Assembly: GCA_900757695.1 (NCBI GenBank)
Contig: CAAEOU010000095.1
Coordinates: 1-7,930, forward strand
Direction: 5' to 3'
Length of the DNA stretch: 7,930 nucleotides
Source: an uncultured Oscillospiraceae bacterium
Lineage (GTDB): Bacteria > Bacillota_A > Clostridia > Oscillospirales > Oscillospiraceae
Shown here in pieces: positions 3,800 to 7,930 of the stretch. The notes beneath the pieces are model-generated. The model had not been told where the DNA came from. It was given only the letters and a program-made list of their open reading frames with translations, and did no database searches. Each line of letters opens with the position of its first letter. Within the stretch, counting starts at the first letter, position 1. Position numbers and translations under genes: made by a program.

Positions 3800-3813
3800 G
3801 TACAAGCGTACAG

Positions 3814-3838
3814 GGCTGCGGCATACTATGCCGCAGCC
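3814..3838 (+). terminator. Perfect 11-bp hairpin after folD, weak terminator candidate
   Basis: GGCTGCGGCAT (3814-3824) and ATGCCGCAGCC (3828-3838) are exact inverted copies around a three-base ACT loop. The stem lies 15 bases after the folD stop, where a terminator is expected. The downstream tail (TTACACAT) is poor in T, so termination may be incomplete, or the stem may instead protect the folD mRNA 3' end. A bidirectional role is possible, but no gene converges here. Confidence 0.55.
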
Positions 3839-3880
3839 TTACACATACTGAATCTAAGCTCAAATGTTGGAGGAACAAAC

Positions 3881-6187
3881 TTGAAACGAAAGCTCTTATG
3901 TCTCCTGATCGCTGCTGCGCTTTTGATCGGCGTTCTGCCTGCGGCAGCGGCAGAAGCGGAGGAAAACAGCCAATCGCCGGATGCCATCGTCTATATTCCG
4001 CTGGATAACCGGCCCTTTAACAAGGACCGGGTGGAGCAAATGGCCGCATCTCTGGATCTTCAGCTGGTGATGCCCGAGGAGGATCTATACGCCACCAAGC
4101 TGGACGGGCAGGAGAAAAACGCCAACGGCACCCAATATGGTGACCGTGGCGCACTGCTGGCATGGCTCATGGATGAGGCGGAGCATTACGATACCTTTTT
4201 GATCTCGCTGGATCAGCTTTTGTCCGGCGGACTCATGAACTCCCGCTGTATGCTGGAAATGGAAAACGTGGTGCTGCCGGATGGCACGGAGATGTCGGAG
4301 TATGACGTCATCGATTATTTGCAGGAGCTGGCGGCCACCAAAACCATCTATATCATTGACTCCATTCCACGGCTGGCCTCCTCCAGCGGCTATGGCGGGT
4401 ATACCACAGGCTCCTATAACTATACCCGGAATTACGGGGCTATGGCCCGGCCAATTTTGCAGTATGGACAGCTGACCGTGGAGAATATCATTGCCAACTA
4501 CAGGAATACTGCCCAGCAGCCCGAACCGGAGGTGGCGGAGCTCATTGATCGTTACCTGACGGTCAGAGAGCGAAAGCTGCGGCTGTGCGACTATGCCATG
4601 CGGCATCTCAGCGGGCAGGGGAACGTCCAGTATATCCTCGGCGTAGATGACTCCTCGGACGGCAACAATATCCAGACCAATGAGATCGCCTATGTGCGGC
4701 GCTTTCTGGGGGATGATACGCTGATCTTTTCCGCACTGGATGGTCTTGCGCAGATGGCGCTGGCGAAGATTTACATGGATCGTGCCGGTATGCAGGGGCT
4801 GCAGGCCAGCGTAGACTATTTCGGCTGCGACAGCGATATGGTGCCCACCTTTAACTATAAATCCGTGGGGGCCATGATAGAGCAGACGGTAGGCTACTTT
4901 GGCGGGGAAATTCTGCCGGAGGATGCGGAGGAAACAGCGGATGTTTCCATTCTGGTTGCAGCCAGTACGGAGGATTCTACGGTAAATCAGGCTGCCTTTC
5001 AGGCACTGATCCGGCGGCTTACGGAGAATGAGGCGGCGGAGCGCCCCACCATCCTGCTGGACTTTACGGAAAAAGACCGTTCGGTATTTCACGGCCTGCT
5101 GACAGAGTATGCGCATCTTGGATACCTGCTGAGCTACAGCGGCTATTATGAAAATCCGGTGCAGGTGCCCATGGCCGTCAGTCAGGGGCTGGCACGTTAT
5201 ACGGCCCTCCACACGGAGCTGTCGGAGCAGGCCCAGACTGCCCATGGGGAGGGGCTGCTGACGGCGCTGGTCAAGGAGTTTTACCGTTCCGACGGGCCCC
5301 TGACAGCAATGAGCGGCATACTCTCCGGGGAAGGGCTGGCCACCAATAACTTTGGCGGGATCTCGCAGCAGAAGCTGCGGGCCCTGCAATGGCAGCTGCT
5401 GATCCGCATGGAGGATGCTACCAAAGATCTGATGGAGAATTTCAGCCGCAGTAACATGATCGTCTCGCTGGAGCCTTTTACCCAGCGGGGATTGTCTCAG
5501 GCACAGCTGAAGGACTGCTGGTATCCCTGGCGCAGAACTCTGGAAATCGGCACCTCGGTTTCCTGCCAGCTGTCGGAGCAGTGCCATGACATTCCGGTGC
5601 ATACCCCCTATATTCAGGGCGTGGATTCCGAGCATTTTAAGCCCAATGGGAATCTGACCCGGGAGCAGGCGGCAAAGCTGCTGGTGGCGGTGAGCGATAC
5701 GGAAGTGCTGGAGCCGTGGGAATGCCCGTTTTCCGATGTGGCTGGATGGGCCAGAGGCTATGTGGCCTCAGCCTATGCAGCCGGGTACATGAAGGGATAT
5801 CCCGGAGGGCTTTTCAAGGGCAGCGGCAGCATTACCCGGGCGGAGTTTGCGGCGATGCTGGCCCAGTATGCCGATGCTGTGGGCATGGAGCTGGAGCGCA
5901 CCGAAACGGTTTCCTTTACGGATGTCCCCGACAGTGGCGGCCCATGGTACGCCCAGAGCGTCCGCCGACTGGCACAGGCAGGGGTCATCCATGGCTATGG
6001 AGACGGCAGTTTCCGGCCGCAAAAGAATGTTACCCGGGCCGAGGCAGTGGCGATGCTCAACCGCTTCTTCGGCAGGAATGACACGCCCCCGGCGTGGATG
6101 ACGGCAGAGAATTTCTTTACGGATGTGCCGGAGACCTTCTGGGCCTATTCCGCCATTGCGGAGGCAAGCTGCCTGCACTTTGGATAA
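3881..6187 (+). CDS. Secreted DUF4127-family protein with C-terminal SLH repeats
   Basis: Function unknown. The 768-residue product starts at TTG3881, chosen because GGAGG (3869-3873) lies 7 bases upstream and the protein then opens with a clean signal peptide: MKRK, a hydrophobic stretch, and likely cleavage after AAAA near residue 24. Residues about 35-560 resemble DUF4127: VYIPLDNRPFN (37-47), ISLDQLLSGGLMNSR (108-122), an Asp pair in VDDSSDGNN (255-263) and YPWRRTLEI (548-556). The usual AYAGWNT-like segment is replaced by SYSGYYENP, so the member is divergent. The C-terminus is SLH-like: a partial repeat ending LTREQAAKLL (near 590), repeats from about F617 and F679 (GYGDGSFRP...TRAEAVAMLNRF), and a short final piece FTDVPETFWAYSAI (from 746). 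SLH repeats bind secondary cell-wall polymers, so the protein should sit on the wall. It precedes a lipoprotein gene. The DUF4127 assignment is from memory of the family, without a search. Confidence 0.8.
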   Translation: MKRKLLCLLIAAALLIGVLPAAAAEAEENSQSPDAIVYIPLDNRPFNKDRVEQMAASLDLQLVMPEEDLYATKLDGQEKNANGTQYGDRGALLAWLMDEAEHYDTFLISLDQLLSGGLMNSRCMLEMENVVLPDGTEMSEYDVIDYLQELAATKTIYIIDSIPRLASSSGYGGYTTGSYNYTRNYGAMARPILQYGQLTVENIIANYRNTAQQPEPEVAELIDRYLTVRERKLRLCDYAMRHLSGQGNVQYILGVDDSSDGNNIQTNEIAYVRRFLGDDTLIFSALDGLAQMALAKIYMDRAGMQGLQASVDYFGCDSDMVPTFNYKSVGAMIEQTVGYFGGEILPEDAEETADVSILVAASTEDSTVNQAAFQALIRRLTENEAAERPTILLDFTEKDRSVFHGLLTEYAHLGYLLSYSGYYENPVQVPMAVSQGLARYTALHTELSEQAQTAHGEGLLTALVKEFYRSDGPLTAMSGILSGEGLATNNFGGISQQKLRALQWQLLIRMEDATKDLMENFSRSNMIVSLEPFTQRGLSQAQLKDCWYPWRRTLEIGTSVSCQLSEQCHDIPVHTPYIQGVDSEHFKPNGNLTREQAAKLLVAVSDTEVLEPWECPFSDVAGWARGYVASAYAAGYMKGYPGGLFKGSGSITRAEFAAMLAQYADAVGMELERTETVSFTDVPDSGGPWYAQSVRRLAQAGVIHGYGDGSFRPQKNVTRAEAVAMLNRFFGRNDTPPAWMTAENFFTDVPETFWAYSAIAEASCLHFG

Positions 6188-6308: not shown

Positions 6309-7259
6309 ATGAAAAAATTCGTTGCACTTCTAATGGCGCTGGGACTGGCGGTGACCGCCGCAGGCTGCGGCAGCGGGCAATCTGTGGGCAGCAGCCAGAG
6401 CGCATTGCCTTCGGCACCGGAGGCGTCGGCTTCCGTCGACGCTGCACAGAGCGCCAGTGATGCAGAAGCAGGTGCATCACTGGATCAGCAGAGCGATACG
6501 GTGACAATGATCTATTATCTCGATCTGAAGGACGGCTCCATTATGGCGGCGTGCAGAGATCAATCGGGGATCGATTCGCTGGGCGGAGACTATATCAAAG
6601 TATATACGGACAATGCAATCATGGAGGATGCAGCCGGAAACCCGGTGGCGCTTTCTGACATTGCTCGGGGCAGCATCCTTCAGGTCACATTCCCGGGGAT
6701 GGTGACCATGAGCATTCCTGCGCAGATTTCCGCCTCTAAAATTGTTGTGTCCGAGGAAGCACCGGCGGATGTTCCTGCGGAAAATGAGATCCCGGATCGG
6801 GGCAGCGGAAAATGGTGGGAGCCGGAGGTTGTCAATCAGGTTCCGGATCTATCCATCCAGTATCGAAGCCAGTATGGCCAGATCAGCCAGCTGATCCCCT
6901 ACCACACGGGATCGTGGAGCTATGGGGATGAGGGCGCCCAGCAGGGCGGCATGACCAATGCAGCCTTGGACGGTCAGAAGCCCCAGGACTGGGTCTATGA
7001 CGAGTACAATACCCTGACCCGGGCGGGATTTGACACCGTAACGCTGACCTTTGCGGCAGCACCGGAGGATATAACGGTGACGGCCTACCTGCGGTCTGAC
7101 CCGGAGGATCCCGGCACCCAGATCCCTGTGGAGGCCGATGGCAGCATTGCTTTGCTCCAGAGCGACGAGGATGTGGTGTATACCGTATCCGGAACGTGGA
7201 ATACAGAAGCCTATCAGGGCTGGGCCGTCTATGGATTTCTGGTGACAGCGGCAGACTAA
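6309..7259 (+). CDS. Predicted lipoprotein of unknown function
   Basis: I do not recognise this 316-residue protein. ATG6309 is chosen over an earlier in-frame ATG at 6243 because AAGGAGG (6292-6298) precedes it by 10 bases and the protein then begins with a lipoprotein signal: MKKF, a hydrophobic core and lipobox AAGC with Cys20 as the lipidation site. Residues about 21-62 are a Ser/Ala/Gln-rich linker, as expected between membrane anchor and folded part. Residues 64-148 look like a small beta-rich domain (IKVYTDNAIMEDAAG, SILQVTFPG, ISASKIVV), loosely reminiscent of DUF3221-type OB-like modules. After a Pro/Glu-rich joint (149-180), residues 181-316 form a second domain containing GSWSYGDEGA and TVTLTFAAAPEDITVTAY, perhaps beta-sandwich. 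It should face outward on the membrane. It follows the DUF4127-SLH gene by 121 bases with no clear terminator between, so the two may be co-expressed. The domain guesses are tentative. Confidence 0.8.
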   Translation: MKKFVALLMALGLAVTAAGCGSGQSVGSSQSALPSAPEASASVDAAQSASDAEAGASLDQQSDTVTMIYYLDLKDGSIMAACRDQSGIDSLGGDYIKVYTDNAIMEDAAGNPVALSDIARGSILQVTFPGMVTMSIPAQISASKIVVSEEAPADVPAENEIPDRGSGKWWEPEVVNQVPDLSIQYRSQYGQISQLIPYHTGSWSYGDEGAQQGGMTNAALDGQKPQDWVYDEYNTLTRAGFDTVTLTFAAAPEDITVTAYLRSDPEDPGTQIPVEADGSIALLQSDEDVVYTVSGTWNTEAYQGWAVYGFLVTAAD

Positions 7260-7291: not shown

Positions 7292-7320
7292 GAATGAAAT
7301 TACGCCTCTCGGGAAAAATT
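7292..7320 (+). promoter_or_regulatory. Candidate forespore (sigma-F, possibly also sigma-G) promoter of sigG
   Basis: GAATG (7292-7296) resembles the sigma-F/sigma-G -35 (GNATR). After 14 bases, GGGAAAAATT (7311-7320) matches every specified base of the sigma-F -10, GGnnAnAnT(T). AATTCTA (7317-7323) also resembles the sigma-G -10 CATnnTA, although its 20-base spacing from the -35 is long. Transcription would start near 7326-7328. In Bacillus subtilis sigG is transcribed by sigma-F and autoregulated by sigma-G, so this is the expected promoter type. The -35 is not ideal, lacking the pyrimidine of GYATA. Confidence 0.55.
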
Positions 7321-7348
7321 CTAACAGGAATTTTTCCGGGAGGTTTTT
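7305..7348 (+). promoter_or_regulatory. Hairpin sequestering the sigG ribosome-binding site, with terminator-like T tract
   Basis: The 5' arm (7305-7321) and 3' arm (7328-7343) pair over 16 positions, with one bulged G and one G-T, around loop TAACAG. Nine inner pairs (GAAAAATTC with GAATTTTTC) are perfect. The 3' arm ends in GGGAGG (7338-7343), which is the sigG Shine-Dalgarno 8 bases before its ATG, and TTTTT follows at 7344-7348. The structure can therefore act as a terminator for upstream transcripts and also hide the ribosome-binding site in any RNA that contains both arms. Confidence 0.75.
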
Positions 7349-7351
7349 CAT

Positions 7352-7930
7352 ATGCTTGGGAAGGTTGAAATCTGCGGCGTGAACACCTCAAAATTAAAGG
7401 TGCTGCGCAACGAGGAAATGATGGCGCTGATGAAGCGGTATAAAAACGGCGATATGGAGGCCAGAAATGCGCTGGTGGAGGGGAATCTCCGGCTGGTACT
7501 CAGCGTGATACAGCGCTTTTCCAACAGCGGAGAGAGCCCGGACGATCTGTTTCAGGTGGGCTGCATCGGACTGCTGAAGGCCATTGAAAACTTTGATATC
7601 AGCATGAATACGAAATTTTCCACCTATGGGGTCCCCATGATCTCCGGAGAGGTAAGGCGGTTCCTCCGGGACAACAGCCCCATCCGGGTCAGCCGGAGCC
7701 TTCGGGACACGGCCTATCGGGTGCTCCAGACCAGAGAAAGCCTGATGCGGGAGAACCAGAAGGAGCCTACCATGGAGGAGATTGCAAAAAAACTGGAGCT
7801 GCCCATTGAAGAGGTGAACTTTGCTATGGACGCCATTGCTTCTCCGGTGAGCCTCTATGATCCCATCTATTCCGATGGGGGAGACCCGCTGACCGTCATG
7901 GATCAGGTGCGGGATACCAAGAATACCGAT
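7352..7930 (+). CDS. sigG: Sporulation sigma factor sigma-G, 3'-truncated by the window edge
   Basis: RNA polymerase sigma factor that drives late forespore genes after engulfment. It starts at ATG7352 and runs off the window: 193 residues are visible of about 255-260. The N-terminal KVEICGVNTSKL tag is diagnostic for sigma-G against sigma-F. Region 2 (about residues 36-108) includes NLRLVLSVIQRF, DDLFQVGCIGLLKAIENFD and TKFSTYGVPMISGEVRRFLRDN, covering core binding and -10 recognition. Region 3 (about 113-170) includes SRSLRDTAYRVLQ and EEIAKKLELP. The stretch PIYSDGGDPLTVMDQ is also sigma-G-like. Region 4, the -35 reader, lies beyond the window. The residue matching B. subtilis Asn45 is Glu43 here. 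In Bacillus and many Clostridia sigG follows spoIIGA-sigE; here the upstream neighbour is a lipoprotein gene, so it seems to depend on its own forespore promoter. Confidence 0.96.
   Translation, partial: MLGKVEICGVNTSKLKVLRNEEMMALMKRYKNGDMEARNALVEGNLRLVLSVIQRFSNSGESPDDLFQVGCIGLLKAIENFDISMNTKFSTYGVPMISGEVRRFLRDNSPIRVSRSLRDTAYRVLQTRESLMRENQKEPTMEEIAKKLELPIEEVNFAMDAIASPVSLYDPIYSDGGDPLTVMDQVRDTKNTD

Follow-up and report, generated by a model that had tools for sequence, protein, structure and literature searches.

A candidate start-site-gated translation lock in front of sigG in an uncultured Oscillospiraceae bacterium, with a similar design at spoIIR

Promoter and hairpin in front of sigG

The window discussed here is a stretch of 7,930 nucleotides (nt) from an uncultured Oscillospiraceae bacterium (assembly GCA_900757695.1, contig CAAEOU010000095.1), which closes within sigG, the gene for the sporulation sigma factor sigma-G. 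On the plus strand sigG occupies positions 7352–7930, its ATG being read at 7352–7354, and runs off the window end. The 193 residues present match TIGR02850 (spore_sigG) with an E value of 2.5e-93 and 312 bits, below the whole-protein cut-off of 457 for this truncated gene. Just upstream, on the same strand, lies a sigma-F/G-type promoter composed of the −35 element GAATG (7292–7296), a 14-nt spacer and the −10 element GGGAAAAAT (7311–7319). The latter is below consensus and aligns with the GGAAATACT-type −10 of relatives, in which the −35/−10 pair sits at the same place. The window promoter scores 9.5, while relatives reach about 15, and a score of at least 9 is found in 156 of 166 non-redundant sigG leaders, the window included. 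From the distance of 7 nt past the −10 we infer a transcription start at 7326 (about 7325–7328).

This promoter is overlaid by a hairpin at 7304–7344 on the plus strand, which folds with 18 pairs, some of them G-U, and a single bulged G (G7313). Its 5′ arm (7304–7322, that is 7304–7312 plus 7314–7322) starts within the promoter spacer and continues through the −10, the loop (7323–7326) holds the predicted start, and the 3′ arm (7327–7344) contains the whole sigG Shine-Dalgarno sequence (SD) GGGAGG at 7338–7343. Within the 5′ arm, the partner of the SD is located at the border between spacer and −10. The initial annotation, made from the DNA letters, had described the same layout, and the fold bears it out in all but detail: the hairpin exists, with 18 pairs around a bulge in place of the 16 base pairs given, and the −10 does fall in the 5′ arm, with an extent of 7311–7319 instead of 7311–7320. 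Its proposition that only upstream-derived RNA would be able to form the hairpin likewise follows from this layout and the predicted start. The segment 7300–7360 has a fold energy of −23.3 kcal/mol (z −4.9), equalled by none of 200 dinucleotide shuffles. Ranked by stability against the other plus-strand folds of 45 nt, the hairpin is sixth in the window, with five other sites folding better; it is unusual for its position more than for its stability. A search of Rfam returned a microRNA model as its sole match, far under the cut-off, and this was treated as chance.

Folding with and without the 5′ arm, the check proposed by the initial annotation, separates the two kinds of RNA in the expected direction. 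The mean probability that the SD is unpaired is predicted to be 0.005–0.014 in RNA entering from upstream and 0.26–0.40 in RNA begun at 7323–7328. Opening the SD would cost 12.1 kcal/mol in the read-through model, against a null mean of 5.0 kcal/mol, and 7.5 kcal/mol in the start-site RNA; none of 100 shuffles of the upstream part reaches 12.1, and none of 100 shuffles of the spacer alone reaches the window value. As the partners of the SD lie at −16 to −22 relative to the predicted start, the gating would be independent of the exact start unless this is badly misplaced. The SD is freed only in part because downstream bases, for example 7384–7388, re-pair some of it. These belong to an ACACCTC in the early sigG codons (7383–7389, plus strand), which can pair with the SD of promoter-started RNA in the fold of 7326–7400. 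Promoter-started RNA has no folding advantage over shuffles (z 0.13 and −0.27, the latter for 7326–7400). As a prediction the gate thus holds, yet it gives no on/off contrast.

As a side observation, the pairing of ACACCTC with the SD is a possible counterpart of damping structures in Bacillus subtilis, again no better than in shuffles.

Ribosome-site pairing in sigG and spoIIR leaders

To place the window among its relatives, sigG leaders were gathered in three sets: the best 80 of 361 related loci (set A), 70 loci from 150 genomes (148 with a match) of the family to which G001, the genome of the closest relative, belongs (set B), and the 30 best loci from 119 genomes (104 with a match) of the phylum of G001 (set C). 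The 181 hits, window included, were reduced to 179 with a start codon (L036 and L157 were left out), to 166 by removal of 13 near duplicates, and to 156 by removal of 10 leaders with no or a weak promoter (score below 9). Six of the near duplicates were family loci identical to set A loci and are counted in A. The final collection consists of the window, 71 leaders of set A, 59 of set B and 25 of set C. A lock is called strong when at most 5 of 100 shuffles reach the cost of opening the SD and the cost difference is at least 4 kcal/mol, terms that were chosen after seeing first results. The same SD test was applied to controls, namely generic genes, spoVT (7 of 24 loci came without the N-terminal motif and 17 were used), gpr and spoIVA. 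The leader test of spoIIR, gpr and spoIVA did not include L228 and L304, whose SD is weak, or L274, which is partial; where the tested leaders had no promoter scoring 7.5 the start was assumed 28 nt before the gene.

In the family, pairing of the SD to pre-start sequence exceeds chance. No more than 5 of 100 upstream shuffles attain the cost of opening the SD in 28/59 leaders of set B, 17/71 of set A and 6/25 of set C; the corresponding counts are 3/55 for generic genes, 3/17 for spoVT, 2/24 for gpr and 2/23 for spoIVA. Strong locks make up 27 of the 59 family leaders versus 9 of 119 pooled controls (Fisher p 8e-9), an enrichment that supports selection for the lock. The pairing also has a preferred site. 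Averaged over the 156 leaders, the duplex with the SD is strongest 21 nt before the start, within the promoter spacer (−6.1 kcal/mol); it is about −2 to −3 kcal/mol over much of the region, with a lesser peak of −4.9 kcal/mol at −39, and weakest near the −35 and −10 elements. In every one of the 50 strong sigG leaders the median partner of the SD falls before the predicted start: in the spacer in 31, between −15 and −1 in 10 and upstream of the −35 element in 9.

The match is one of sequence order. In 36/59 leaders of set B, 22/71 of set A and 9/25 of set C, at most 5 of 100 composition-kept shuffles do as well as the native spacer. In a swap test, set B spacers suit their own SD better than those of other leaders do (p 6e-6), and when the test is pooled over all 156 leaders the own spacer ranks in the best 5% for 24/59 of set B, 3/71 of set A and 3/25 of set C. 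For gpr (p 0.26) and spoIVA (p 0.19) the swap test found no significant own-spacer advantage. Two of the 23 spoIVA leaders (L259 and L271) have strong SD-masking hairpins, with arms 14–27 nt upstream of the assumed start.

The same design recurs at spoIIR, grouped with sigG as a sigma-F gene, whose product is the signal switching on sigma-E next door. The locus was obtained from 26 of 31 family genomes, with a usable start in 25 (leaders within L225–L250). Strong locks are found in 15 of these 25, versus the 9 of 119 pooled controls (Fisher p 2e-8). Of the strong locks, 11 belong to the 15 leaders whose promoter was scored; the start was assumed in the other 10, which include 4 of the strong ones. 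Earlier picks of starts, which yielded fewer of them and were later replaced, gave in one case 4 starts of which none passed the spacer test and in another a strong lock in 9/13. In several family leaders (e.g. L226, L227, L229, L237 and L241) a single long hairpin, often with a T run behind it, takes in the −10 with its 5′ arm and the SD with its 3′ arm. Own pairs of spacer and SD reach −17.9 kcal/mol versus −9.6 kcal/mol when swapped, with 15/24 in the best 5% (p 2e-5), and G001 is locked at both sigG (L001) and spoIIR (L241). Outside the family, 3 of 29 spoIIR leaders from other genomes of the phylum carry a lock, all three among the 6 of 29 with a scored promoter of their own. A limited search of the open-licence literature, which is no proof of absence, found no paper on such a lock at spoIIR.

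Weighing the readings

Taken together, these observations suggest that sigG in the window probably carries a translation lock gated by the start site. RNA entering sigG from upstream would carry the promoter spacer and −10 as an arm; by pairing with the SD this arm would block initiation, and some upstream-derived transcripts would perhaps be ended at the T tract that follows the stem. RNA begun by sigma-F, and later by sigma-G, at about 7326 would lack the 5′ arm and could be translated, in reduced measure. Outside the forespore, little sigma-G would therefore be made from stray or read-through transcripts. The analysis shows how the sequence is laid out, which structures it is predicted to form, that the promoter is conserved and the lock enriched in the family, and that the design is repeated at many spoIIR genes; the start site, the block of translation and the benefit are inferences. 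Early production of a compartment-specific sigma factor is dangerous, and a lock that senses the origin of an RNA rather than its amount would render leaky transcription harmless without a protein regulator.

A number of results weigh against this reading or against the form in which it was first put. The partial release of the SD means that the initial annotation overstated its case in having the promoter-started RNA translated freely. Conservation of the stem in relatives, which it had set as a test, is patchy: the closest relative L001 retains the hairpin lock, and the next three, L002, L003 and L004, with SigG proteins 79–82% identical, have none, their values being reached by 78, 76 and 59 of 100 shuffles (the leaders of L002 and L003 are near duplicates). 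Even in set B, 32 of 59 sigG leaders are without a strong lock, and enrichment over the controls is modest in set A (16/71, Fisher p 0.004) and set C (6/25, p 0.03), where the swap test gives no significant own-spacer advantage (p 0.17 and 0.31, respectively). Nor is the control entirely clean, as spoVT passes the short spacer-shuffle test in 5/17 leaders, near the proportion in set A. Were read-through from the neighbouring gene the reason for the lock, locks should go with a co-directional upstream gene; they do not, strong sigG locks accompanying a co-directional upstream gene in 15/49 leaders, an opposite one in 13/54 and no call in 22/53. A terminator role for the palindrome is possible, yet was overstated too: the terminator scan of the window does not list the hairpin, and a T-rich tail follows only 13 of the 50 strong sigG locks, so that termination does not account for sigG locks in general. 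Finally, the idea that a promoter within the arm would be a new form finds no support, the large sigG hairpin of B. subtilis having the same logic as described in PMC5942855.

The neighbour-direction comparison relied on open reading frames (ORFs) with homologues in other loci and is crude; 53 of the 156 leaders were uncalled, the window among them, and for L001 an ORF more than 1 kb away was picked. An earlier version based on the longest ORF was dropped, antisense ORFs being long in DNA so rich in G+C; neither version supports a link. Either the guarded transcripts are stray ones, or the gene calls are too crude, or the function is a different one. Read-through as such is documented elsewhere: PMC3789822 reports read-through spoIIGA-sigE-sigG RNA in B. 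subtilis and C. acetobutylicum. The sigG of C. difficile is described in PMC7438776 with at least two promoters.

The likeliest of the alternatives, though less probable than the main reading, adds to the lock. It proposes a two-stage guard in which the upstream arm locks read-through RNA while a weaker pairing between SD and early codons damps translation of the promoter-started RNA, as in B. subtilis. The low accessibility of the SD in start-site RNA speaks for it, as does the 5-bp hairpin at the ribosome-binding site (RBS) of the B. subtilis RNA from PsigG, which according to PMC5942855 lowers expression 2–4-fold; that the window's start-site RNA folds like its shuffles speaks against it.

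We regard it as unlikely that the hairpin serves the lipoprotein gene chiefly as an intrinsic terminator, abutting and including the sigG SD by accident, and that the promoter grew into it. About 45 nt separate the lipoprotein stop from the start of the hairpin, and five T come after it (7344–7348, plus strand), making a potential weak terminator with a G-C base and U5, a bulge and an A-U rich upper stem. T-rich tails (at least five T in eight) are somewhat commoner behind strong sigG locks than in other sigG leaders (13/50 vs 14/106; 13 vs 8 by a second measure), and strong family spoIIR locks are terminator-like, with such a tail near the leader end in 14/15 as compared with 1/10 of the others. 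Against a terminator stand the silence of the scan at this hairpin, the 37 of 50 strong sigG locks without a T-rich tail, and the equal frequency of locks where the nearest called gene points away.

Chance meetings of C-rich promoter spacers with G-rich SDs, the window being one lucky case, are a most improbable and already disfavoured account: the anti-SD is short, spacers rich in C are found repeatedly, no lock is seen in three of the four closest relatives and the window's own spacer ranks only at 8.4% for its SD among all 156 spacers, but neither upstream nor spacer shuffles attain the window value, 36 of 59 family leaders pass the composition-kept spacer shuffle, and own pairs have the advantage within the family.

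For the translation lock gated by the start site, the wider question is whether it constitutes a shared safety device of the sigma-F cell-fate genes sigG and spoIIR. In this family a hairpin or terminator would often have the promoter in its 5′ arm and the ribosome site as its 3′ arm, protein would be made only from RNA begun by sigma-F or sigma-G, and the arms would drift between species while the lock is kept; we see this proposal as evenly balanced. Locks at both genes with covariation of own pairs would turn a single-gene proposal from B. subtilis into a testable design rule for forespore gene control in Clostridia.

Genomic setting and known systems

The potential source of read-through is the co-directional gene at 6309–7259 (plus strand), which encodes a predicted lipoprotein with a lipobox-like TAAGC noted by eye and for which NCBIfam and Pfam searches gave no family. 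Further genes upstream are those for a protein with a DUF4127 domain and S-layer homology repeats (768 amino acids, 3881–6187, between folD and the lipoprotein gene), folD, recN and argR; the window sigG does not follow spoIIGA-sigE, which is a matter of location and not of the lock itself. A terminator-like hairpin (2836–2861) is placed directly after recN and a very stable fold (3800–3844) directly after folD.

In some genomes sigG itself appears to be split at about codon 93–97, around GVPMI (L191–L193, L195–L199 and L330–L335; genomes G122, G027, G116, G050, G008, G055, G009 and G127, and also G044). At eight loci only the C-terminal part, from residue 94 or 95 onward, is at the site. The N-terminal part is found on the same contig and strand about 6.4 kb off in G027 and G122 and about 25 kb off in G116, and on another contig in G008, G009 and G044; G050, G055 and G127 gave weaker matches only. 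An ORF for a large serine recombinase stands immediately upstream of the C-terminal part in L191, L192, L196, L197 and L198, with Pfam Resolvase and Recombinase domains in those of L192 and L198. The arrangement resembles a skin-type element intervening in sigG; a non-exhaustive literature search found no such case.

Protection of IS10 and IS50 from outside transcription offers one comparison for the lock: read-through RNA folds over the ribosome site, and RNA from the own promoter starts inside the palindrome. The genes are unrelated to sigG, and the device serves transposition control.

Closer is sigG of B. subtilis, where, in Mearls et al. 2018 (PMC5942855), a hairpin of 20 or more pairs is proposed to stop translation of PspoIIG read-through RNA and is unable to form in PsigG transcripts. 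The initial annotation had mentioned a hairpin limiting sigG translation in B. subtilis, and the idea is older than it supposed; the authors credit the large hairpin to work of 1988. Both systems share the sigG gene, a sigma-F/G-type promoter just upstream and a long hairpin pairing the ribosome site with pre-start sequence. If RNA begins at the predicted start, about 7326, the window hairpin would be unable to form in it. The likeness is drawn from the text description, and the setting differs: in B. subtilis sigG lies behind spoIIGA-sigE, in the window behind a lipoprotein gene. The separate RBS hairpin of B. subtilis also covers the sigG SD and lowers translation; in contrast to the window, whose 5′ arm (7304–7322) is upstream of the predicted start, it has 5 pairs and both arms within PsigG RNA. 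It is this RBS hairpin, not the large one, with which the survey of Clostridia (4/13) dealt (PMC5942855). According to the same paper, removal of four other damping features, the large hairpin not among them, leads to ectopic sigma-G activity, so wrong sigG expression matters in B. subtilis. In kind the mechanism is therefore not new, having been proposed for B. subtilis sigG (PMC5942855); the present analysis contributes family-wide statistical backing and an apparent extension to spoIIR.
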